From Beroe forskalii (Eukaryota > Ctenophora > Nuda > Beroida > Beroidae), in assembly GCA_011033025.1 (NCBI GenBank), contig WFMF01000015.1:620001-684000 (forward strand): DNA of 64,000 nucleotides, written 5' to 3'. Position numbers and translations under genes: made by a program. A model generated the notes under the pieces. It was not told where the DNA came from. It saw only the letters and a list, made by a program, of their open reading frames with translations, and did not search any database. Position 1 is the stretch's first letter; each line of letters opens with the position of its first letter. Below, piece by piece: positions 2,265 through 18,659 of the stretch.

Positions 2265-3270
2265 CCTGACACCACTTGTCCAGGCATCAATAACACCAGT
2301 ATCCAGTGACCACTGACACCAGTACGCCATGTATCCCTGACACCAGTACGCCATGTATCCCTGACACCAGTACGCCATGTATCCCTGACACCAGTACGTC
2401 ATGTATCCCTGGCACCAGTACGTCATCTCGTCATGTATCCCTGACACCAGTACGTCATGCATCCCTGACACCAGTACGTCATGCATCTCTGATACAAGTA
2501 CGCCATGTACCTCTGACACCAGTACGCAATGAATCATTGACACCAGTACGCCATGTATCTCTGACACCAGTACGTCATGTATCCCTGACACCAGTACGCC
2601 ATGTATCCCTGACACCAGTACGTCATGTATCCCTGACACCAGTACGTCATGTATCCCTGACACCAGTACGTCATGTATCCCTAACACCAGTACGCCATGT
2701 ATCCCTGACAGTGACACCAGTACGTCATGTATCCCTGACACCAGTACGTCATGTATCCCTGACACCAGTACGCCATGTATCCCTTACACCAGTACGCCAT
2801 GTATCACTGAAAACAGTACGTCATGTATCCCTGACACCAGTACGCCATGTATCCCTTACAGTGACACCAGTACGCCATGTATCCCTGACACCAGTGTCCA
2901 GTACGCCATGTATCCCTGACACCAGTACGTCATGTATCCCTGACACCAGTACGTCATGCATCCCTGACACCAGTACGTCATGCATCTCTGATACAAGTAC
3001 GCCATGTACCTCTGACACCAGTACGCAATGTATCATTGACACCAGTACGCCATGTATCCCTGACACCAGTACGTCATGTATCCCTGACACCAGTACGTCA
3101 TGTATCCCTGACACCAGTACGTCATGTATCCCTGACACCAGTACGCCATGTATCCCTGACACCATTACGTCATGAATCCCTGACACCAGTACGTCATGTA
3201 TCTCTGACACCGGTACGCCATGTTTTCCTGACACCAGTACGCCATGTATCCCTTACACCAATGCGCCATA
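2265..3270. repeat. 24-bp tandem array in the left arm
   Basis: About 1 kb of a 24-bp unit beginning ACACCAGTACGTCATGTATC and ending CCTG, roughly 40 copies by span divided by period. The commonest variation is CGTCATG versus CGCCATG. Because 24 is a multiple of three, each frame gives an 8-residue periodic peptide (such as TPVRHVSL), which is not evidence of coding. Rare variant units, for example a duplicated CGTCATCTCGTCATG near 2421-2437, also occur in the right-arm array. Confidence 0.95.
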
Positions 3271-4910
3271 TGGGCATGATAAGTTGATTAATATCAATGT
3301 ACATGAGGTGTAAAACTTGCTAATGTTCATGATACCTTGTTTGCCCTTGTTTAACCGGCCCATAATGAGATTTTTGTCCAAAAGGCTCGCTAAAAATGGC
3401 CGGTTTAAGTGGGACCATTAAATTGACAGTTGATTTAGGCCAGATGAAACTTTCGTTGCTTGGCTTGTGTACTGTTAAATTCATTTGACCGTCATTCTTT
3501 TTTATAACACAGAATATGACTTAAATCATGATAATATACCAGGATTTGGGTTTAATTTAATTTTCTTGAGCAAAAATTTCTCGGTGTGGCAACTGCTTGG
3601 AAAATTTTTGTCCAAGGGGCCGGTTAAAATAGTTCAAAAATGATTCGATTTTTTCCATAGGACCGGTTAAAAAAGGGTCGGTTATAAAAAAAGGCCTGTT
3701 AAATAAATGCCAATAAGGTAGTTAAATTATCTGTAATTCATCAAAAAGTCACTGTTCCAGTAAGCAGGTTAGGTTCCATATTATATGGTTAGATACCATA
3801 TCAATTTAACAATTGTACAACAATGTTGTCACGACATGTTCTTACCACATGAATAAGGAAGTCTCTCAATACTTCTTCTCAGTTTGGGTGGAGCATCTCT
3901 CAGATTTTCATGCCATGGAGTATCGTTCTCTTTGCTGATTTATGAAACCATGAAGAGCACTTATGTACATCCGTCGTCCACGAAAGCATTTTCATACTGT
4001 ACCTACAGTAAAAAATGGACAATATTAGAATATTTTGCCTTGAACAAACCAAAAAGACCAAACAATGAAACTTCATAATTTGGAGTAGGTATATAAATGT
4101 GTTGGGAACATTTTGATTCAAATAGGCAAATCTGCAGTCGACACCAACAACTAGATGAAATTTTCGTGTATATAAGAACCTTCATTGAAAATGGCATAAA
4201 TACATGGCACGGCAATTGGCACCAGAGACTAGGTAAAAATTTCAGAGAAAACTTACACTAAACTATAGATAACTATAGATAGAAAATAAGAAGATAATAC
4301 AAAATGTTACAAATGTAGGTTGGTACTAGAAGTGGGCAATATTTTGTCTCAAATAAATAACTAAAAGTAGATGAAATTTTCAATAAACTAGGCTGGAAAC
4401 AAAATAAGTACTAAATAGGTACATAGGTTCTTCATGTTCACAAAGGAAGGCTCAAAGGGAAGTGGGCAAGGGCAATGAAGAAGGAGAAAACAAAAACTAG
4501 TAGAAATTTTCAGGAAAAAAATGTAAGCAAAAGCCTTATTATATATACTGTCAAGTTTTCTGAAAATATAGTCAAGGAATTATCAAATATAATTTATAAC
4601 AAAGGTAATGTTATAGAAATATCACATACTGGCTCAGTATGTTAATGGGGGTGATGGTGATGAGCATGTGATAGGAGGATAGATAGACAAGTAGGTATGG
4701 GCTAGTTATAGGGTGATTGAAGCAAATGACAGGGCCAGTGTGCACTTTCCAATAGTGCGGCATCGAAGCTTCACAGGGGAGTACAAAACGGGGAGAAAAA
4801 TCAATGAAAATTAAAGGAATCCCCCTGGAATCCCTGACTCAGCACGACCCAGCAGCCTCTTACTATATAGAAATCCAAAGAAAGGAGAGACACGGTGTAT
4901 TTAATCAATT

Positions 4911-5056
4911 GTGCTGTAAAATCTTATAATTGAATTGAATTGAATTGACTCGACAAAGCAGGAGTTCTAAAAGACGCTAATGAAGCTGGAAGGGTGGGTA
5001 GAAGTGTGCAGAAACTAGCGGGTTCAATTCAATTCAATTATAATGTTTTACAGCAC
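4911..5056. mobile_element. 146-bp MITE nested in the left arm
   Basis: Begins GTGCTGTAAAATCTTATAAT followed by TTGAATTGAATTGA and ends with the near-complement, TTCAATTCAATTCAATTATA then ATGTTTTACAGCAC. There is no coding capacity. The same element sits at the matching place in the right arm (36291-36453), so it was inserted before the arm was duplicated. Confidence 0.75.
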
Positions 5057-6478
5057 TGAAATTAGAATATATTTTTCTCTTGCTTCATATACCTAGAAGA
5101 AGCTTTAAGGTCGTGCTGAGGGCGAGCACCAAGTCAAATCTAAAATCTGTTAATATAGGGCCACCCATCAAACGACTAAAAAGGAAGTAAAGATGTGAGG
5201 AATGAAGGATTGCATTGAAAACTATATCTAACATAGGAATGAATGAATGAATATAAGAAAGAATATAAGAAATACATGAATAAAAGATACAGGGTCCTAA
5301 TTCTCTAATTGAACTTCGATATAAAATCAAGAAATTAAAAACACTTGGACTTCAACTGAAATTAATAATGACAGACAGCCTTATACCGTTGAACTTTGAA
5401 GCATTTCTAAACAAAGATTTCAATTGACTTGAGAAATATAATTTATATCCAGTTGATATAAAATAATAATTATATCAATTTTTGACAGCTTATATACTTA
5501 AAACATCCTTCCTTCTCCTATACATTAAGAAACAAATTTCTTGTGCTATATATTAAGAAACAAATGTCTTGTGCTGAGGCCTGAAAGCACATGCAGACGA
5601 TAGCTTTTCAGTAAATCTCAAGTAAGTATAGGTAATAAAGAGAACAAATCAACTACTTAATCTAACTGATACATATTCCTCTTGATTGTTCACACTTCAC
5701 AGGGTCATAGAATTGAAAGAAAATTCTAACGGCAATAGATTGAAAGAATTTGAATAATGAATTTGAATAAAATGTTTACAGGTTGTGCTGAGAAATCTCA
5801 CAAGAAACAATGCAAAATCATGATGACAATATACCTTCATTTAAGAACATACCTTAGTACATGAAATTTAGAACTCCGAAAATTAAGAACGCACATTATT
5901 AGGCAACACCAAATTAAGCATTTGTCATAGCTATTTTGCTTATTATTTATCATATCAATTTTTGACGTTACACCAAATTAAGCATATTTTGCGGCCTGAG
6001 TGCTTAATTTTCTGCTTACTTAATTTCATGTACTAAGGTACATGAATGTGAAAAGATAACTAGCAATAAAGTAAAAGCAAAATTGGAAGCAATAAATTAA
6101 AAGCAATCACACGTAAAACACAGACAAATTGCATTTAATTGACGTTTCAGGCGGCATATCTGTGCTCAGTGAAGCAGTGAGTAATGATCGGACAATGTCA
6201 GGTACTATGGGCTCTATGATTGGTCAATATCAATCTTTTACTCCAATGCAATTGGTCGATGTAGCTTTTTATCCAACCCGATTCTTGAAAAAGTCAAAGT
6301 TTAAACGAACAAATCAGCCAAATGAGGCGCAGCGCGCGGCGCCGAACGCTTTAAAATAGCCAAAAAAGTTGACACCGAGATTTACGGTGTCAACTGCCCG
6401 CGCATGGCCCTGGTCCTATAGCCCTGTGCTGGGGAAGCGCGCCGCGCGAGCCACACAGGGATATACGTGTTTAGCAAC

Positions 6479-6816
6479 GCACCCACGTGCCAGTAAGACC
6501 ACTTGCTTTCACCTCATTATGATACATCAGTGTATACGTATTACGTTATCTTGTTTTGGTTTCATGAGTTTTTGTATACCTTGTTTGTCATTATATGAGC
6601 CGCGCACCCACGTGCCAGAAAGACCACTTGCTCTCACTCCATTACGATACATCAGTGTATACGTATTACGTTATCTTGTTTTGGTTTCATGAGTTTATGT
6701 ATACCTTGTTTGTCATTATATGAGCCGCGCACCCACGTGCCAGAAAGACCACTTGCTCACTCCATTACGATACATCAGTGTATACGTATTACGTTATCTT
6801 GTTTTGGTTTCATGAG
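6479..6816 (+). repeat. ~124-bp tandem repeat, three copies
   Basis: Units begin CGCACCCACGTGCCAG at 6479, about 6603 and about 6727, and include GATACATCAGTGTATACG and TCTTGTTTTGGTTTCATGAG. The third copy stops at 6816, and a fourth, more diverged piece resumes at 13773. The LINE lies between them. Confidence 0.85.
6789..6816 (+). repeat. Target-site duplication of the LINE, left copy
   Basis: 28 bases, TTACGTTATCTTG...TTTCATGAG, identical to 13773-13800 on the other side of the LINE. Together with the tandem-repeat sequence that resumes after 13800, this shows that the LINE interrupted a repeat unit. A caveat is that neighbouring repeat units share the same sequence, so the match alone is not proof of duplication. 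Confidence 0.65.
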
Positions 6817-7600
6817 CATTATACCAATAATTGACCAATAAATTTCTCTTAATCTTAGAACAATCAAGGTTCAGATTAGATAATCAATAGGCATATTATG
6901 AACATAGTATAGTGATATAATAATTTAAAAAACAGAACATATAAAAATATAAATAAGGTCAGGATATCCCAACAACTTAATTACCATTAATGAAATACTA
7001 TATAATTAATAACACCTGTTATTAATGATAAAACAAACCATGCAGTAAAATGTTAATGAAATATATTATGATATATCAAGCGAAATTTGATTTTGTTGTG
7101 GCTACAGGAAATACTTGTGGGTACTTGGGTACCACCCTTGGTACAACAACAATAGATTCAATCAAGAATTTAGAACAAAAACTACCTATATGAGTCAAAA
7201 TGTGAGGGAGCTGTCAGAAACATTAAAAAACTAAATTACTTTGAAAACTAAGTTAGGTTTAGTTAATAATACCATGATTAATATTATTGGAATAAATAAG
7301 AATTATAAAATTAATTAATAATCAGTTTTACATAAACTCATTAAGAACACAATTTAGTTTAGTTCTTTTCTCATCAGTGTTGATTAAGCAGGAATGTGAA
7401 GTGTGTTTCCTTTCATTTCATTTTATACAGACATTCCAACACACAACTTTCACCTGTCATTGAATGTTAAAAATTTTGCATCATGCAAATTTCTAAACGT
7501 GTGAGAACTGCTGTAAATAAGAAGATTTAAGTAATTTAAAGCTAACCCAAAATTGAAGCTATTTGCTGTAATATAGCTAAGTTGAACATAATTTCTAAAG
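6817..7600 (-). other. Presumed 3' tail of the LINE, non-coding
   Basis: AT-rich, without an open frame or clear 3' microsatellite. Assigned to the LINE because it lies between the ORF2 end and the 28-bp flanking repeat. It could also contain a separate small insertion; around 7100-7150 there is a GGGTACTTGGGTACCACCC palindrome-like segment. Confidence 0.45.
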
Positions 7601-7625
7601 TTTCATTGAATTGCAATTGCTATGT

Positions 7626-10600
7626 TTAAAAACTGTGATTATGGCATTCCCAGAGTTGGGGATGTCCTGATGACTGAATATCTAACAGAAATTTCTTGAA
7701 CCTGTTTTTCGCCATACACGAAGATGTTGATAAATCAGATAGAAAGTTTGTGTTGAATTGAGCTGTTTTATTGTTAAATTTATTCCAGATGGTAGTGCCA
7801 CAGTACAGAAACTGCTGCCTTGAAGCTTCTAGGTTATAACGGGGAATAGAAATATTATTATTCAAGTAATTTCTCATGGATTCAGGTGACCTTTTAGTAA
7901 TATATACAGGGAATTGGATATCTGTATTTCTTAATTTTGAAGACTTCATTAAGCAAGAAAAGCTTGTGAAGATTGTGCACAGTTAATAGTTTAAATTCTG
8001 TGAACAGAGGCTTAGTATGTTCCAGAACATAGTCCTTTGGAGTCAAATGTTCATCAATTGATCTAGTTCTTGCACAAGTTTTATAGTATTCTGCATGATC
8101 AAAGTTCAGTTTTTTCCCAAAAAGTAAGCGTATACATCTCTTTTGTATGTTGAATATAGGTTTAAGTTTATTATTTGAAACAGAACCCCAAGCTGATATT
8201 CCATAAGTCAAGTGTGAGATGAAGAGTGAGTGGTATAATTTACTGTAGTGTTCAGGAGGGATAAACTTCTTAACTCTTTTGATCGTAACAATAGAGCTGT
8301 TCAGTTTTTGTTCTAAGTGTTGTAGATGACCCTCCCAATTCAAATTTTCATCTATGATAATTCCTAGATACCTAACCATATTTGTTTTCTTAAGCTTATT
8401 ACGATTCAAATACAGATGTTTCTCACTACCTATAACTTTAGCTCTGGCACAAGTTTTCTGTTCATTATGATTGAGCTTTGGTCTGAAGTGCATGTAGACA
8501 CACTTTTCAATATTGATATGAATTTGATTACTCAGCATATATAAATTTATATCTTGAAGAACTATGTTAGCTTTAGAGAACACTTCTGCTTCAGAATTTC
8601 CAGTAACAAAAATATTAGTATCATCAGCAAACAAAACAAAGTGTGCAAGTTGAGAGCAGTTGACTATATCATTTATGTAGAGAATGAAAAGTAGTGGACC
8701 TAGAACAGATCCCTGGGGTACACCATAAATAACAGGCAGCAGTTCTGATTTTTCAGAGTCATAATTAGTGAGTTGCTGTCTATTAGTCATATAGCTTTTT
8801 AATAAGTTAAGTGGTTTGCCTCTTATGCCATAATTTTCTAACTTGATCAAAAGTTTCTCATGACATATAGTATCAAAAGCTTTACTAAGGTCAATAAATA
8901 TACCAAGTACATGGTTTTTATTTTCAATATTAAACGTTATTTTGTCTATAGAATAGTTCACCGCATGGGATGTAGAGTGGTGACTACGGAAACCATATTG
9001 GTTCTCATATAGGATATTCTTGGAGATAACAAATTTATACAGACGAGAATACATAACCTTTTCAAATATTTTCCCAAAGCATGGTAACATAGAGACAGGC
9101 CTGTAGTTCTTGAACAGTTGTTTATTGTCTTTTTTAAAAACAGGAGTTATCTGACCAACTTTGAGGATACGTGGAAAAACACCTAGATCAAGAAATTTGT
9201 TATAAAAAGTTGTCAAGTTTGATATGATAAGAGGTGTGCAACTTTTGAGAACTCTGATTGGTATATCACTTGCCTTACCATTCTCCAGTTCAATGATTAT
9301 TTTTTCTATTTCTGCTTGCGAACATGGCTCAAGGAATAAGCTATCATTTACCCTGCTTTTTAATGAATGTCGCTAGAAAAAATCTGGGACAGGAGATATT
9401 GAAGGTTTTCAGATTTTAGAGCATTTTCATTCAAGTCACGAGCAACTGATGCAAAGTAGTTATTGAATTCATTGGCAATGATTCTTCTATCATTCACCAA
9501 GCTTCCATTTACAAGAAAGGAGCATTTAGACTTTGAAATGCTCTTTCCTCTAAGCTTATTTATTAGCTCCCAAGTTTTCTTACTATTCCCCTGGCAATTA
9601 CTGAACTTTTTGGAATAAAACATGTTTTTGGCAGATTTAATAAGGGCTCGTAACTTTTTACGATAGTTTTTATATTTTTCATAAAGCTCGGAGTCACCTG
9701 TTTGATTTTTCCTATTTTTACTTTTCTTCCATTTTTCATACAGAAAGCCCTGATCGATATCATTGGGAACGAAGGTCTAAATGGGGACGACAAAATCTCA
9801 CAGAATTTTATGTCATTTTGTTTTTGTCATTTAAAGAAGAAATTCTCAAAAAATCAATTTCGCTCTCTAGAAAATTCTTCACTATTCATGTCATTCTATT
9901 TCCTCCCGTTCCCATATCTCATAACATGGTGTTATTTTTAGAGCTTGATGCACTGATTACGGTAAGGCATAATATGCTACTGAATATGATGTAGTCCTCT
10001 AATTTCCTCTCTTGTGTTCTACTTGAGGCTCCCGACAATAAGTCTAGCGTTACCCCGCGGTATCGCGCCGTTCCTAACTTTCCATACGTAAAGCTATGAT
10101 ATCAATGATTTTGGAATCGGAGGATGTCTTAATTAATCGAATTTGATGTTGTCCTCTTCACCTCGTTGCGAAAAAGTGGAGGTTCAACGTCATCAACTCA
10201 ACACATCGTTCTATGATAATTACAACATTTTAACCGCCGACTTTTTGATCTATGGGCATATTAATCCTTGTCAAGCTTGGTGTATCATAATAATGCCCGC
10301 AATGAATAATTTCCTATGGAACTAGAGGGTAAAATGCGAAAGGCTATGATGAGGATCAGCACCTTAAAATAATTGTGATAATTTCATACCATATTCATAA
10401 ATCATATGGCGCATTATGAAATCTAATTTTATCATGATAGGCCACAATTCGTTCATTTCGGCTGAAGTTGACTGTGGAGCCATTGCTACCATTGTACATC
10501 AAAGCTTAAATTTGTTACTTAATTACACGTCGCCTTTTTTCGCTATGTACGGTATTATGCACATAAAAAATTTTGCTAATTAATAAAAGTTAATTCAATT

Positions 10601-11986
10601 AGGACATCCTTTGAAATTTTTGGGGACAACCAATTAACAATGATATCGATCTGGGACAGAAAGTTTTTATAATTAATCGAATTCATGAGACCATTTGTAA
10701 TCCAAGGATTCTCAATTCGATTGCGCTTTGATTTCTTAAGTATTTCAGGACTAACTTGGAAACATTCATCTATTGTTTTGCTTATGCATGAGACAAATTC
10801 TTCAAACCCTGATTCATCAGCACTAAATTTTGTCAACAGAAAGTTTTTGGGAAAGTTTTGCATTGAATTCAATGATATTGGTTTCACAATAGTCATAGTG
10901 TGACTTAGAACTTACAGAATCATCATCCTTACAGTTTTTACCAGTGGTGTCAATTATATCATAAAAACAAACTGTTGGATAGTGATGGGACACCTTAACA
11001 TCAGTTAATAAGCCAGATCCAACCACATAATCTATATCAGAGACAAAGATATTATCAATACAAGATGGATCACATCCTGGCTTTTCATGTAGGAAGAGAA
11101 ACTGTTGGTATGAAGCAGTTACCAAAAAATATATTCTCAAATTTTGACTTATTGCTGTCATTTTTGAGTAAGTTTATATTAAAGTCTCCAGTCACAACAG
11201 AATGATTATTATTTTTTCTGTTAGACAGATTATTGAAAATTTTTTCAAGTAATTGGTAAAAACTTTCAGATTGCCACTTGGGGTCTATATACTACACCAA
11301 AATTGAATTTGTTTCCTTCAGATATTTCTACAAAAAGGGTCTCAATATCAGGACATAACATTGTTAGGTCATTGATAATATTTCCTGTAAAACCTTCATT
11401 GAGATAAATGCCTATTCCACTTCCTTTGTGTTTATTAGGGTACTTAGAACTAAAAATTGAGCTATACCCAGGGATTTTATAAAGGTTTTTATGGTACTCA
11501 TTTATATTTGTTTCAGTAATTGCCAGAAGATCAAATTTATTTTTAACTAAAGATAGCTTGGCAAGCAATGTATCAAAGTTTTGTGACATTCCGTCAATAT
11601 TATTGGAAAAAAACCGCCAGTGGCTTTTTTATCATAACCAAAATTTTGGGCATTTATCAGTTTGTTAGACAAAAGTTTACAATTATTAAGACATCTTTTA
11701 TTTTGTCAATTTCTGCATAAGCTTCTGGATCATCAGGACTATATTTATTGTAGCATATGGAATTAAATGGAGAGTATTTCACTGCTTTCTGTGTTTGACA
11801 GCCGCAACAAAACCATTGGTCAACTGTTTGATCATAATCAAATGATTGTTTGCCACATTTATGGTGAGAAATTATGTTACACAGAGAGCATACTAAGAAT
11901 TTTTGATGGGTATAGATGTCCTTACAGCAGTTCACACAAGGTTCACGATTGGTCAATGTTCTATGGTTGATAGCCATTATTAACAC
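7626..11986 (-). pseudogene. LINE ORF2: PHD finger, endonuclease, reverse transcriptase
   Basis: ORF2 starts at 11986 with a C4HC3 PHD-type zinc finger: Cys17, Cys20, Cys33, Cys36, His41, Cys44, then WFCCGC. The AP-like endonuclease follows in pieces 11589-11266 (AITETNIN with the catalytic Glu, and KGSGIGIYL) and 11161-10823 (SCIDNIF, SHHYP). A linker (10896-10664) reaches NPWITNGLM and is cut by a DNA transposon at 9748-10655. Frame-exact continuation lies below 9740. The reverse transcriptase (about 9600-7950) has FKKDN-KNYRPVS, the first Asp in FIDLSKAFD, YGVPQGSVLGPLLF and the catalytic HFVLFADDT. A last frameshift near 7920 moves to the C-terminal piece (7949-7626). It is inactive as it stands. 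Confidence 0.9.
9748..10655. mobile_element. 908-bp non-autonomous DNA transposon with 8-bp TSD inside the LINE
   Basis: The terminal inverted repeats are CCCTGATCGATATCATTG at 9748 and its complement (17 of 18 matching) ending at 10655. They are flanked by a perfect 8-bp duplication ACAGAAAG (9740-9747 and 10656-10663). Dropping the element and one copy of the duplication rejoins the LINE ORF2 reading frame without a stop, which fixes both ends to the base. It has no transposase ORF. The 8-bp duplication fits hAT-like or other 8-bp-TSD families; the termini do not identify the family. Confidence 0.92.
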
Positions 11987-12249
11987 TATTCAAATTAAAG
12001 CTTTCAAAGCCTCCAGTAGGGAAGCTATCATGGTGGTTTCCTGTCCACGGATAAGGGTGAGCTGGGAGGGGGCGGTTGCTGGCTCTGTATTTAGGATTGG
12101 GATTCCAAAATGAAGATCCTTTTTCAGCTGGTTTCCTATGAGCATGGTTTGGGTTATGACTAGCATTTAGTGCATCTGTTTTTTTAGAATGTTTTTGCTT
12201 GATTACACTATATTTGATATTTGAACAAAAGATAGAGATTCCTTTTGAT

Positions 12250-12754
12250 CCTAGGTGCACAGTGTCAAATACTTTTGCTCCACCATCTTGGTGATGACGC
12301 CCCAAGTCATGACTCAAAAATACCTGAACTGTTTTGCCAGATTGTGATGAGAAATGATTGATATATCTGCATGCTTACTCACAAAGCTCATGATTTTACT
12401 ATATTAAATTCATTAACCAGTGAATTGAGACCAGGATCTTTGGTGGGAAGTAGCAAACTAACAAAGATTTTCATATTGGGGAACTTTGATTGTAATGCAA
12501 CACATTTCTGCTCAAGTTTCTCCAGTAGCACTGGAAGAGGGAGATGGCTCTTGCTCCTCAAATCATTTATACCACTGTGTATTACTAGATTACGATATGG
12601 ATATTCTAAGTCCTCAGGCCCAGGTATGTCATCAATTGTGCCAGCTTTTGACCCGACAACCTGGCATCCAAACACCAAAAGTGTTTCTTCCAGAGCCAAA
12701 TTTAAGGTTCTGGGTGTTTGAATCACCCACAATGAGGGTTGAGTTGAGGTAGTA
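12250..12754 (-). other. SGNH/GDSL hydrolase domain within LINE ORF1
   Basis: Block I is LIVGDSNTQ with the catalytic Ser codon at 12719-12721. It is followed by an R-x-T-FGVWMPG-RV segment, then IHSGINDL (the G-x-N-D block III), and finally DTVHLGSKGIS with Asp at 12264-12266 and His at 12255-12257, the block V dyad. Two frameshifts separate the blocks. Such esterase domains occur in ORF1 of CR1-like LINEs. Here the domain follows an AlkB domain with almost no linker. Confidence 0.8.
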
Positions 12755-13270
12755 GGGTGCCAGCTGCCTGAAGGTGATGCTGAAGGGTTGAGGAGCAATC
12801 ACTTGTAGGGATCTCATGCTTCCAGAACTGCTGTGAGGCACGTGTGAATGCAAGAAGACTATTGTTTGACAGTGTGATAGTCTGTTCATCTCCTGATGAT
12901 GATGTGAATTTCATATTTCTTTCAGTGCCAACAGAAAGTGTGAAAATGTCTGACCATTGTGCAATGAATGTTTCATCATCACTGTGCTTAGGACAGACAT
13001 TAGATCCATTCTTATATCTTGTGATAAGACATGAATTGATGCATGATTTTGGATTATTGGCAGATATTTGCTCCATGATGGGCTTCAAGACCTCTGGTAC
13101 AGGATTAGCTTCATGCTGGATAGCTCCATAACGGTACCTGAACTCACCAAAATATGCAACATCCCTACTACTGCTGCCTGATTTGATTGTCTGGAAGTCT
13201 TGGCATTTTTCCAGAAAGCTTGTGACTTGTAAATGCTGTTCTTTGGAGAGAAAACCTTCTTCATAACTTT
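12755..13270 (-). other. AlkB-like 2OG-Fe(II) dioxygenase domain within LINE ORF1
   Basis: The AlkB family oxidatively removes alkyl groups from nucleic-acid bases using Fe(II) and 2-oxoglutarate. The domain opens with a GFLSKEQ segment, then R-DVAYFGEF-Y-Y, then NSCLITRYKNGSNVCPKHSDDE, the signature that precedes the metal site in ALKBH2/3-like proteins. The iron ligands are visible: His (codon 12984-12986) and Asp (12978-12980) of the HxD motif in KHSDDE, and the distal His of WKHEIP (12816-12818). The 2-oxoglutarate-binding Arg is in SITFRQL (12767-12769), where one frameshift intervenes. Order and spacing match the family. It runs directly into the SGNH domain. A repair or demethylation role on the element's own RNA or cDNA is inference. 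Confidence 0.85.
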
Positions 13271-13772
13271 TTTATTGGCTTACAGGTGTCTGCATTAAAC
13301 TTGTAACTGGGAGATTGATAGCTGAAATACCATTTATATCCTGGGTGAGGGATTAAGACTTGCTGAAGGTATAGATTGCAGCTCAGTTAAAACTTTACCA
13401 ACTTGAGTATTAAAAGTTTGGGCTTGCTCTCTAGATAACTGTTCAAGGGCCTTGATATTACCAAGAATTTCATGATTAAGTTTAGTTAGGTTTGAAAGGT
13501 TATCAAAGCCACCTTCGTGATCAGAGCTATCACCACTCATATTACCAGATATGACAGTTTGAGCTTCTGAACATATAGTAGATTTCAAGAGTGGAAGTGC
13601 TTTAGATGGTGAGGTAAGGTTAACAACATCAATGATTTCATCTTGGTCTGAAGTTGGCAGCAAACCAGGATAATTTACATAACATCTCTGACAAATGAAT
13701 ATAAAATGTCCCCATCTTGATGAATTATGCTTGTAATGAGCAGATAAGGGACCATACATATCAAAAAATGTT

Positions 13773-13840
13773 TTACGTTATCTTGTTTTGGTTTCATGAG
13801 TTTATGTATACCTGGTAGTTGATATAGGAGCCGCGCACCT
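13773..13840 (+). repeat. Right target duplication and resumed 124-bp repeat unit
   Basis: The first 28 bases (13773-13800) equal 6789-6816. The following bases, TTTATGTATACC and then GGAGCCGCGCACC, continue the 124-bp unit in a diverged form before unique sequence begins. Confidence 0.65.
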
Positions 13841-15240
13841 ACTTACCCTCACTACTAGTCTACAATTTGCCTATAAATGTGCATCCGTTACGGCGTTACA
13901 CACTTACACAGAAATGATCTTCAAATTTTTTTGATGTTGCTACACATTTCAATCGACAATCACTTTATAGTACCTAGTTTAATCAAAAGATATGAGCAAA
14001 GTTTATAAAGATTCCGTACTTACGTTTTATGCATGTTTTGAAGGCAAATTTAGATATACATAGCCACTCTTTACCATCTAATCTAAAATTCCTGGCTAAT
14101 CTTGATATTTTCCTAAGTCAATTTCAGGCCCTCTACTCTCTAGCTCAAAGGGTTTTTATATTTGAAAGCTTCTAAATTTGCTTTTTATTGGAAAAACCAG
14201 TGTAGATCTCCGCCCGTTTCTCACGTTATATAATAGATTAATCAAACACCCTAAGGATACGTTTATATCAATTATCACACTCGCCTTCGGCTCGAGTGAT
14301 AATTGGAATTATTGCACTCGCCTTCGGCTCGAGCAATAATTCGAATTATCACACTCGCTTCGCTCGTGTGATAATTCATATAAACGTATCCTAAGGGTGT
14401 TTGATTATCCTATATTTCAAACATACTATAATTTTTATGAATCTAAATGAATCTAAATTCTAAATTCTAAATTCATTGTTAAAATTCTAAATTCATTGTT
14501 AAAATTCTAAATTCATTTTAAAAAATCAACATTTCATTTTTGATTATATGAATGCATTTTTTGTGATCTTGTCTTTAGGTCCTTAAAATGTGTTTGAAGT
14601 TGTTTAATATTTTAGTAATGTTTTCAACTTATTAATCTTGATCATGAGTTGTTATCTTGTTTGTCTGAATTTAATAATCGTAACTATTTTAGAACTAAAG
14701 CTTTCGTTATTGGCTTCACATCTCGGCCATTTTCTTATATGTTGGTAGAGCTGAGCTGTTTTAATTTTGTGAAATTGGGAGTACTGCACCAAGTACCCTC
14801 CATTTTGACTCTCATTCTTCTTTCATGTCATACACCCATAAATGGTAGTTGGGGCCTTATAATATGTATTTATGTTCTTCAGTCAAAAAAGTTTCTGAGC
14901 AGCTGTATATGATTATATCAGTTTGCTTAAATGCTTCTACATGCCATTCAGGTACTTCACTACTATGGGAAAGACATAGAAGCATAGAGACCTAAAGTTT
15001 CAACTGTAGGTCTCAATGACTTCCTTTCTTGTCAATTCAATTAAACAATATTTCAATTTAACAATATTTCAATATTTTACAACAGTACAGACCAGCATTT
15101 GCACAATTGATTTTATTTCAATTCCTTTTCAGTCTTCAGACACTGCATAATATTATGTTGAATAACGACTTGGAATTAGGAAAGTACCAGAAGTCAAAGA
15201 GCTAACCCTTTTCTCCTCTCCTCCTCAATCCTACTGCCAC
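13841..15240. other. Non-coding stretch
   Basis: AT-rich sequence with no supported gene. It includes a 169-bp MITE (listed separately), a short direct repeat of TTCTAAATTCATTGTTAAAA near 14458-14520 and two overlapping ACAATATTTCAAT motifs near 15045-15070. Confidence 0.5.
14239..14407. mobile_element. 169-bp palindromic MITE with three GC hairpins
   Basis: The arms TAATCAAACACCCTAAGGAT...TTATAT at the left and the exact complement at the right enclose three tandem hairpins: CACTCGCCTTCGGCTCGAGTG, a GCACTCG...CGAGC version, and CACACTCGCTTCGCTCGTGTG. The first and last pair with each other as well, so the whole element folds on itself. It has no ORF. The target duplication is unclear, possibly TA within the arms. 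Confidence 0.8.
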
Positions 15241-17085: not shown

Positions 17086-18659
17086 ATGGCTCGTGGTGGT
17101 ATTGGAATTAACGAGCTCAGCAAAGTTAAGTTCTGGCAATTGGTAGCAAGTGAGGGGGTCGGCACCATGTTCATTGTGATACTGAACAATCTCCTCGTCA
17201 GTAGACACGATGGGAATTCGGTTCTTCTCAACGTAAGGTAAGTTATGCTAGTCTTTATGTTAGCCTTGGCCCTTTAAATAGACCAAAATAAGCTTTAAAC
17301 AGTACACTACTTCCTGTTTTGATATTCTAAGCTTGTTATTCTTGTCGGAGCTTTTATGACTCTCTGACAACAGGGGGCTAGGGACGGAAGTCTGTTTACA
17401 GATTTTGTTCTTTCTAGTAAAGGAGAACGCCAGCTTTGATATGTTCTTTTTTCCACAGTTGACAAAGTTTTCAAAGTTGGAATTTGAAATCGTTATTCTG
17501 CCTCTAAGATAGGTAAACCCATGGAAATTGACCTCAGACCTCTTGCCCCCGTAACAAGCTTATGTATTGTTCGGTCCCTATTTCTGTTTGCTAAATTGCA
17601 TTTCAAAAGGAGTAAAGTGTGTCTGATTTCTGCCTATTTCAGCATCACCACTGGACTGCTCTACACACTGCTGCTGTACATGTTTGGTAACCATGGTTAC
17701 TTTAACCCCGCTATCACATTGTCTCTCTACGTGTTTCAAAGGGTAAGTCAAACCGTTGATTGATTCTTATCACTGTTGATTCTTATCTCAAGGTAAATTC
17801 AAGCAAAATTACCGCTTTAATAAATACACTTAAACATCTAAACTTGTTTTCAATTATTCCAGTATATTTGATCTTTTCTCAAGACAAGATGGTAGAAATC
17901 AGTTATACATTCACCCAGCAAACCATCCTCTGATCCCTCCTAAAATCAGCCATACAGTTCGTCATTTAATGTTACTCTGATCCATAAATGTTTCGGGACT
18001 AGAGCAAGACTTTTGATTATCACTTATTATGTCACTCAGGTGCCATTGTTCCGAATGTTGTTCTACAGTCTAAGTCAAGTGATAGGCGCTGTGGCTGGAC
18101 AAGCCCTTGCGAGATTGGTTGTTTTGCCTGGGGAGGGCTACTCTGTCATGGGAAACTGTGCTACCATACCGGCGGAAGGGATCCCTAACTATACGGTAAC
18201 TATCAGAGGATCGACCGAGTCCTCGGCCTTTTTTACAATTACCAACGATATTAACATTAACCGAAACCTTGGCCTCAGAAGATGTGTCTTTTTCAGAAAT
18301 TTATTTGGTCAAATTTGTGTTTATGATTTATTTTGTTATTTTGTCAGATATTCTTCATTGAGATGGTAGGAGTGATGTTGGTTTCCGCTGCTATAAGTTC
18401 CAGATGCAAGTCTTACATTATCGGGGTTGCGGTTACCTTGGCCACCTTTTTCACAGTGAGTTATTCCTGTCGTAAATTATCCTTCGTCATCTTTTCTTTG
18501 AGAGATGTCAGCCGTCGGGGCAAGGAAAAATTCAGCAAGAAGGCGAGCACAATCTAACATTTGTCATTTTCTCAGTTCCCAGTTTCGATGGCAAGTTTGA
18601 ACCCTGCTCGTGCTTTCGCAATGTACGCAGTGTCCGTCGTAATTCCTTCTTACAGCTGG
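17086..18659 (+). CDS. Aquaporin (MIP family), five exons, 3' end not found
   Basis: Membrane channel for water or small solutes. Five exons join in frame with consensus sites: 17086-17237, 17643-17742, 18040-18195, 18348-18455 and 18576-18659, giving exactly 200 codons without a stop. Exon 1 starts at an ATG and holds transmembrane helix 1. Exon 2 has the first NPA box (GYFNPAIT, Asn codon 17704-17706). Exon 3 continues with LSQVIGAVAGQALARL. Exon 5 has the second box, SLNPARAF (Asn 18600-18602), including the arginine of the selectivity filter. A normal protein is about 250-290 residues, so the last helix (one exon or more) is missing; I could not find it downstream before the repeats at 19.9 kb. 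The first box lacks the usual His before it. The gene lies between the two inverted arms. The subfamily is not assigned. Confidence 0.88.

Follow-up and report, generated by a model that had tools for sequence, protein, structure and literature searches.

An AlkB-type dioxygenase domain in ORF1 of LINE elements from the ctenophore Beroe forskalii

Introduction

The functions of LINE ORF1 proteins are poorly understood. These proteins coat the RNA of their element and act mainly as RNA chaperones. A preliminary description of a stretch of 64,000 nucleotides from Beroe forskalii (contig WFMF01000015.1, positions 620,001 to 684,000 of the forward strand; hereafter the window) had read an AlkB-like dioxygenase domain inside the ORF1 of a LINE, based on an HSDDE motif, a distal His in WKHEIP and an Arg in ITFRQL. 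This raises the question whether the domain really belongs to the element and, if so, what it might do there.

Results and Discussion

The AlkB domain of the window

The window frame at 12726-13271 on the minus strand was compared with the Pfam profile 2OG-FeII_Oxy_2 (PF13532). This search, which the preliminary description had proposed, returned an AlkB match with an E-value of 1.1e-14 and 55.6 bits (cut-off 31.2). The match extends from about 13142 to 12795, and with the Arg motif the AlkB (2OG-Fe(II) dioxygenase) domain reaches to about 12761 (12761-13142, minus strand). HSDDE and the distal His of WKHEIP share the frame from 13271 to 12723; SITFRQL, the motif with the Arg (about 12784-12761), belongs to the frame after it. 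Since the window copy is broken, joining the conceptual frames was needed and right. In an open sibling of the element, L034, the entire domain is found within one ORF1 frame. This open frame and the matches throughout the genome argue that the window match is not a product of chance.

The LINE copy that carries the domain

The LINE copy was delimited by blastn against L034 (C192:526200-533200), which is located on the same contig about 95 kb away and is 98-99% identical (98.98% over 3131 and 98.47% over 2937 alignment columns; 99% in the AlkB stretch). The copy occupies 6817-13774 on the minus strand and comprises remnants of ORF1 and ORF2 together with the 3' UTR. Relative to L034 it starts inside ORF1, at 13774, and ends at 6817. 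Besides this 5' truncation it shows 24 small indels, mostly of one base, some of which may be assembly errors, and about 0.9 kb of inserted sequence.

Through the truncation the first part of ORF1 is gone. The N-terminal remnant (13337-13774, minus strand) consists of the end of a Cys-rich region and a linker, of which L034 has a longer version. The AlkB domain is followed by an SGNH/GDSL esterase-like domain (12212-12748, minus strand), a neighbour absent from the preliminary description and recognized by the motifs GDSN, GIND and DTVH spread over three frames; the corresponding part of L034 is a single open frame, but without a Pfam GDSL match. ORF2 begins with a PHD-like zinc finger (11660-11977, minus strand). 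The window piece gave no Pfam match, and the equivalent ORF of L028 matched PHD (PF00628) with an E-value of 7.1e-5, just below the cut-off. Next comes the endonuclease region (10656-11628, minus strand), which is frame-broken and whose window pieces lack a Pfam match. The reverse transcriptase with its FADD box (7897-9318, minus strand) is an open frame with 92 matches in the genome; its sibling matches RVT_1 with an E-value of 9.2e-36. ORF2 is interrupted by the insert (9748-10655), which is missing in L034 and has the inverted ends GATCGATATCATTG and CAATGATATCGATC. The two sibling alignments around it overlap by 8 bp. These features probably mark a small DNA transposon together with a duplication of 8 bp.

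An identical 28-mer flanks the LINE copy on the 5' side (13773-13800) and on the 3' side (6789-6816). The 5' flank copy overlaps the start of the element by 2 bp, so that the border is uncertain by this amount. A tandem repeat of 125-bp units (6478-6816) contains the 3' flank copy, and adjacent units carry the 28-mer as well, by which the duplication becomes a little less certain. The 5' truncation and the abutting duplication are the footprint left by target-primed reverse transcription, as is characteristic for a LINE. The 125-bp tandem repeat was the target of the insertion. Elsewhere in the window a 37-bp tandem repeat in three copies was found at 14270-14377, and a plus-strand frame at 17944-18366 weakly resembles aquaporin (MIP, PF00230, E 0.0058, below the cut-off).

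Open elements and their assignment

Both reading frames of L034 are open. ORF1 (429-2495) encodes 689 and ORF2 (2482-5916) 1145 amino acids, and the start codon of ORF2 overlaps the end of ORF1. The ORF1 protein contains, in this order, a Cys-rich finger, a linker, the AlkB domain (PF13532 E 5.2e-15, 56.6 bits) and the SGNH-like part with GDSN, GIND and DTVH. In ORF2 a PHD-like finger is followed by an endonuclease (Exo_endo_phos E 5.8e-5, just below the cut-off) and the reverse transcriptase.

The elements fall into two groups. L013 represents group A; its open ORF1 of 522 amino acids consists of AlkB (E 4.8e-22, 79.6 bits) followed by SGNH, and its open ORF2 of 995 amino acids matches Exo_endo_phos (E 1e-8) and RVT_1 (E 7.9e-31). 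Hence, both L013 and L034 possess an ORF2 with endonuclease and reverse transcriptase, the endonuclease match of L034 being the one below the cut-off. The window copy and L034 belong to group B. The Cys-rich finger pattern is present in all 11 group B ORF1s inspected and in none of the 11 of group A. Between the groups the reverse transcriptases are 28-32% identical (L013 versus L034) and the AlkB domains 34% (window versus C969). Judged by these sequences, the split between the groups is old and the ORF1 layout is common to both.

The ORF1 is of the esterase type. Lipase_GDSL_2 matched P0062 above the cut-off and L018 (E 2.6e-5) and L028 (E 0.0066) below it, with no match for L034. The group B profile (alignment A2) touches the solved ORF1 protein 4c1b with an E-value of 0.0043; this is the esterase ORF1 protein of ZfL2-1 (PMC3905857). 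In addition, the SGNH residues are invariant in the alignment described below. No RNase H was found among the Pfam matches of the L013 and L034 ORF2s up to E 0.01, in agreement with CR1/L2 elements of the Jockey superfamily. The architecture fits the CR1/L2/Jockey kind, a putative assignment based on layout.

Abundance in the genome

The genome searched comprises 216 Mb on 1134 contigs. Of 189 candidates for PF13532, 150 were scored; all of them exceeded the cut-off, and 140 had no stop inside the match. Some of the 150 are host genes, for example the ALKBH2-like L003 and the ALKBH3-like L001. Two similar host-like AlkB-type genes (L002/L010 and L025, C592) lie about 62 kb apart.

A LINE reverse transcriptase was located 0.5-8 kb downstream on the same strand for at least 45 of the 150 scored matches, and in 31 of these 45 the spacing was 2289-2547 bp. 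The control arrangements occurred once (upstream, same strand) and twice each for the two on the other strand. This pairing count was obtained with two reverse transcriptase queries (96 and 92 matches) and is a lower bound, as scoring covered 91 of 2968 and 90 of 3375 reverse transcriptase candidates.

Three LINE copies deviate from this arrangement. L050 and L051, both of group A, have the SGNH part and no AlkB match in the approximately 2.7 kb upstream. Upstream of L052, which shares 95% identity with L013 in its reverse transcriptase, no ORF1 was found except for an 8-residue piece at chance level. Truncation can explain all three, and they may also represent a LINE family that lacks AlkB.

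Conservation of catalytic residues and selection

The residues expected of the AlkB family, HxD and the distal His for iron and the two Arg (R(5)R) for 2-oxoglutarate, are invariant in all 44 aligned homologues, as are the Ser, Gly, Asn, Asp and His of the SGNH part, which were assigned by motif. This alignment (A1) holds 44 of the 86 homologues of the L013 ORF1; those omitted include short and lower-ranked ones. A second alignment contained the window piece and 21 proteins (20 from a second set of 24 homologues, and P0085). Here, HxD and the distal His again showed no variation and the Arg motif hardly any, as the window piece stops ahead of that motif. Loose patterns applied to all 110 homologues (86 and 24) recovered HxD in 109, the Arg motif in 107, the D..H of SGNH in 95 and GxN[ND] in 102. 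The stricter joint AlkB pattern, which served for selecting the tree sequences, was passed by 102 of the 110. The remaining eight comprise five with HxD within the first 50 residues, one that begins after HxD, one with a disallowed residue and P0081, which has no Arg motif. From each of 22 LINE loci an ORF containing both ligand motifs was obtained, these motifs having also been used to choose the ORFs.

Codon tests were performed with 22 ORF1s, 11 per group. The DxVHL pattern is absent in five of the 11 group A ORF1s and the GxN pattern in L041 of group B; consequently, the SGNH end is not intact in every ORF1 used. Most dS values of the 110 pairs were saturated. In the four pairs with an AlkB dS below 1 the dN/dS of AlkB was 0.050, 0.079, 0.126 and 0.082 (Fisher p from 1e-17 to 2e-6), the first pair showing 6 nonsynonymous versus 26 synonymous differences. 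Five pairs had values below 1.2, and L041/L044 was left out. For the pair L035/L037 the dS is uneven (0.35 in AlkB, 0.09-0.11 elsewhere), so that recombination may distort the ratios.

The median pN/pS over 55 pairs per group was 0.33 in group B and 0.39 in group A for AlkB, 0.37 and 0.44 for SGNH, and 0.57 and 0.69 for the N-terminal part. Thus, AlkB has the lowest median of the three ORF1 parts in both groups; in the single pairs L041/L044 and L022/L027 SGNH lies below AlkB. These ratios indicate that the AlkB domain is under purifying selection, and selecting open copies alone cannot create a deficit of nonsynonymous changes. Neither of the two outcomes named in the preliminary description as contradicting it occurred: the profile search returned an AlkB match, and in other copies the domain persists within an open ORF1 that precedes ORF2, with a clear shortage of nonsynonymous changes. 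One position of the cellular RxNxTxR motif differs. Its Asn is Ser in the transposon AlkBs, by which the specificity may have changed.

Relatives and origin of the domain

Among solved structures the group A profile scored ALKBH3 best (2.8e-26), ahead of ALKBH2 (5.6e-21), bacterial AlkB (3.3e-7) and, weakly, ALKBH5 (0.0011). The group B profile gave ALKBH2 (8.2e-18), ALKBH8 (4.9e-16), ALKBH3 (6.4e-16) and AlkB (4.9e-6), and ALKBH5 did not appear in its list up to E 0.01. Since ALKBH2/3 are far ahead, the domain is by closeness no ALKBH5-type m6A eraser.

In a tree of 47 domains the 36 transposon-type AlkBs (26 copies from the genome and 10 database proteins) split from the 11 others with 98/99 support. 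The latter were four host copies, four named animal ALKBH2s, one cyanobacterial AlkB and two phage AlkBs. The tree was midpoint-rooted, and the program warned of long branches. The rows of L013, L026, L040, L042 and Aplysia carried extra upstream residues, the pattern having caught an earlier His. With this root the transposon AlkBs stand outside both ALKBH2 and ALKBH3 and are orthologues of neither, the nearest relatives being defined at the level of the class only. According to profiles and tree taken together, the closest class is ALKBH2/3, the relationship that the preliminary description had put up for comparison. The simplest reading of the tree would be a single capture followed by long retention.

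Among the viral contigs and phage records compared, no source of the domain emerged. When viral contigs were scanned with A1, 70 pattern matches and no relative were obtained, and the phage AlkBs (9 records) are 27-35% identical, the two included in the tree falling outside the transposon group. The named matches of the host ALKBH2 gene are animals. Two of the 86 homologues of the L013 ORF1 are named, both being gene models of Mnemiopsis leidyi. One of these models, P0079, is 38-42% identical to AlkB copies of the genome; its residues 438-693 match 61 places in the genome at 35-45% and probably are another kind of transposon protein fused into the gene model. At L012 (C228:330027-339927) a GDSL-like frame precedes an AlkB frame, which the tree places with the ALKBH3-like proteins of the host. 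This pair is either a host gene or another element.

Possible function and alternatives

The bases m1A and m3C are substrates of ALKBH2/3, and both stop reverse transcriptases. The ORF1 protein of this LINE clade would combine an AlkB 2OG-Fe(II) dioxygenase with an SGNH esterase-like domain and, in the group of the window, a Cys-rich finger. An AlkB of the ALKBH2/ALKBH3 class would oxidatively strip methyl groups from the Watson-Crick face (m1A, m3C) of bound LINE RNA or single-stranded cDNA. Because such lesions block the reverse transcriptase, their removal would raise the yield of full-length copies. Given the RNA coat formed by ORF1 proteins and the removal of m1A and m3C by this class, clearing of the template RNA or of the new single-stranded DNA appears the likeliest role. 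The sequences show that the domain is genuine, that it is encoded within open ORF1 frames followed by ORF2s with endonuclease and reverse transcriptase, and that it has kept its catalytic residues under purifying selection. That it removes lesions of the m1A/m3C type which stop reverse transcription is a proposal we make with confidence just short of even; it concerns activity, substrate and benefit alike. For the esterase partner in ORF1 a role in membrane targeting has been suggested (PMC4120745).

Other explanations have to be weighed against such a clearing role. The AlkB domain might instead erase regulatory marks (m6A on RNA, 6mA on DNA) and so evade host surveillance. The AlkB of an orchid Ty3/gypsy element has in vitro m6A demethylase activity (PMC9289625), and the genome contains seven MT-A70 matches on three contigs. 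However, the nearest solved relatives are ALKBH2/3, with ALKBH5 trailing ALKBH3 widely in group A and absent from the group B list, and in human L1 m6A promotes retrotransposition whereas ALKBH5 suppresses it (PMC7873242). We therefore consider mark erasure rather unlikely. The domain might also be put to an ALKBH2-like use, the repair of alkylation in the DNA of the insertion site or of the hybrid formed by cDNA and target during target-primed reverse transcription. ALKBH2 acts on double-stranded DNA (PMC9921365), so that DNA is also a possible substrate of the LINE AlkB. The best score of the group B profile, ALKBH2, and the AlkB domain of a Helitron (see below), which moves as DNA, would agree with such repair. 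Against it speak the best score of group A, ALKBH3, and the location of AlkB in ORF1 rather than beside the endonuclease, ORF1 proteins being mainly RNA chaperones; on balance it is unlikely.

That the fold was retained solely as a nucleic-acid-binding module without catalysis is improbable. ORF1 proteins do have to bind nucleic acids, and the ORF1s scanned with Pfam yielded no RRM, but mere binding would not need the iron and 2-oxoglutarate ligands that are invariant in the 44-row alignment. Captured fragments of host genes, lying near LINEs and outside the element, can practically be dismissed. Host ALKBH2- and ALKBH3-like genes from which they could derive exist (L003, L001), but AlkB and SGNH share one open ORF1 frame in many families, their distance to the reverse transcriptase is narrow, the tree splits them from host genes, and in the window the 5' truncation and the flanking duplication enclose the whole unit. 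We reject this explanation.

The genome was also searched for DNA_methylase. All six candidates were scored and gave one match, L046 1489-2766 on the minus strand, for whose protein NCBIfam reports only the 'dcm' superfamily and which, by its motif, we take to be DNMT2-like. Repair of 3mC linked to a DNMT is thus without support, with the reservation that split genes might escape the search. Cytosine DNA methylation may be absent in this genome.

Comparison with known systems

AlkB in retrotransposons is already known from plant LTR elements. Ty3/gypsy (Tat/Ogre-like) elements of the orchid Phalaenopsis encode an ALKBH5-like AlkB, described as recent (PMC9289625). They share with the elements of this study a retrotransposon-encoded dioxygenase of the AlkB family with metal and 2-oxoglutarate ligands kept. 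In the orchid elements AlkB is a separate extra ORF and an ALKBH5-like m6A demethylase (PMC9289625). In contrast, the domain reported here is part of a LINE ORF1, fused to SGNH, nearest to ALKBH2/3 and present in groups with reverse transcriptases only about 30% identical.

SGNH esterase, PHD fingers and an ORF2 with endonuclease and reverse transcriptase are features of CR1/L2 LINEs with Type IV (esterase) or PHD-type ORF1 (PMC4120745, PMC3905857), and the words 'AlkB' and 'oxygenase' do not occur in the main text of these two accounts. A survey of 448 elements describes the esterase ORF1 only from two vertebrate subgroups (PMC4120745). Bdelloid LTR and Penelope-like elements likewise have a GDSL module common to unrelated element classes; there the modules are ORF3 genes, and the main text does not contain 'AlkB' (PMC5408684). 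The TRAS LINEs of Lepidoptera also gained an extra nucleic-acid enzyme, in their case an RNA-virus helicase domain in ORF2 (PMC5563155). Among the titles and abstracts listed in searches of the open-access literature, no report of AlkB in a LINE or Helitron was found. Plant flexiviruses carry an AlkB domain in a selfish RNA replicon, where it presumably repairs RNA; the carriers are RNA viruses in that case and LINEs and a Helitron in ours.

A conserved base demethylase in ORF1 would show that damage or modification of template bases limits retrotransposition. It would also provide a natural system for testing whether alkylation of RNA hinders reverse transcription, and an AlkB shaped by evolution to function alongside a reverse transcriptase. 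If the broader reading given below, of GDSL-AlkB as a 'copy-cleaning' module, is true, mobile elements would carry their own alkylation repair, and m1A and m3C on RNA would restrict retrotransposition.

A Helitron with GDSL and AlkB

An open frame of 2026 codons on C847 begins with GDSL (E 3.4e-8) and AlkB (E 4.4e-20), continues through a long Pro/Ala-rich stretch and DUF6570, and ends in Helitron_like_N (E 5.3e-25); behind it lies a frame matching the helicase PIF1 (E 1e-25). Compared with the LINEs, the two enzymes stand in reverse order, GDSL-AlkB. By coordinates, GDSL-AlkB lies upstream on the same strand of two of 20 Helitron_like_N matches, on C847 and C297. The matches on C297 are partial, and this locus may be a second, partial Helitron of the same type. 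L015 (C225) also has a GDSL-AlkB frame, but Helitron_like_N gave no match anywhere on that contig. The AlkBs of Helitron type are placed by the tree among the LINE AlkBs on a long branch (2.35), so that transfer between LINE and Helitron may have run in either direction.

The same enzyme pair in a Helitron suggests that protein modules were exchanged between RNA- and DNA-based elements. As a tentative broader reading, GDSL-AlkB may be a 'copy-cleaning' module, captured once, long kept in several LINE lineages and common to a Helitron, that would remove replication-blocking base methylation from the RNA or single-stranded DNA of its element. The Helitron-type element of C847 is contained in L024 (1766-9900) and L045 (C847:365676 onward).
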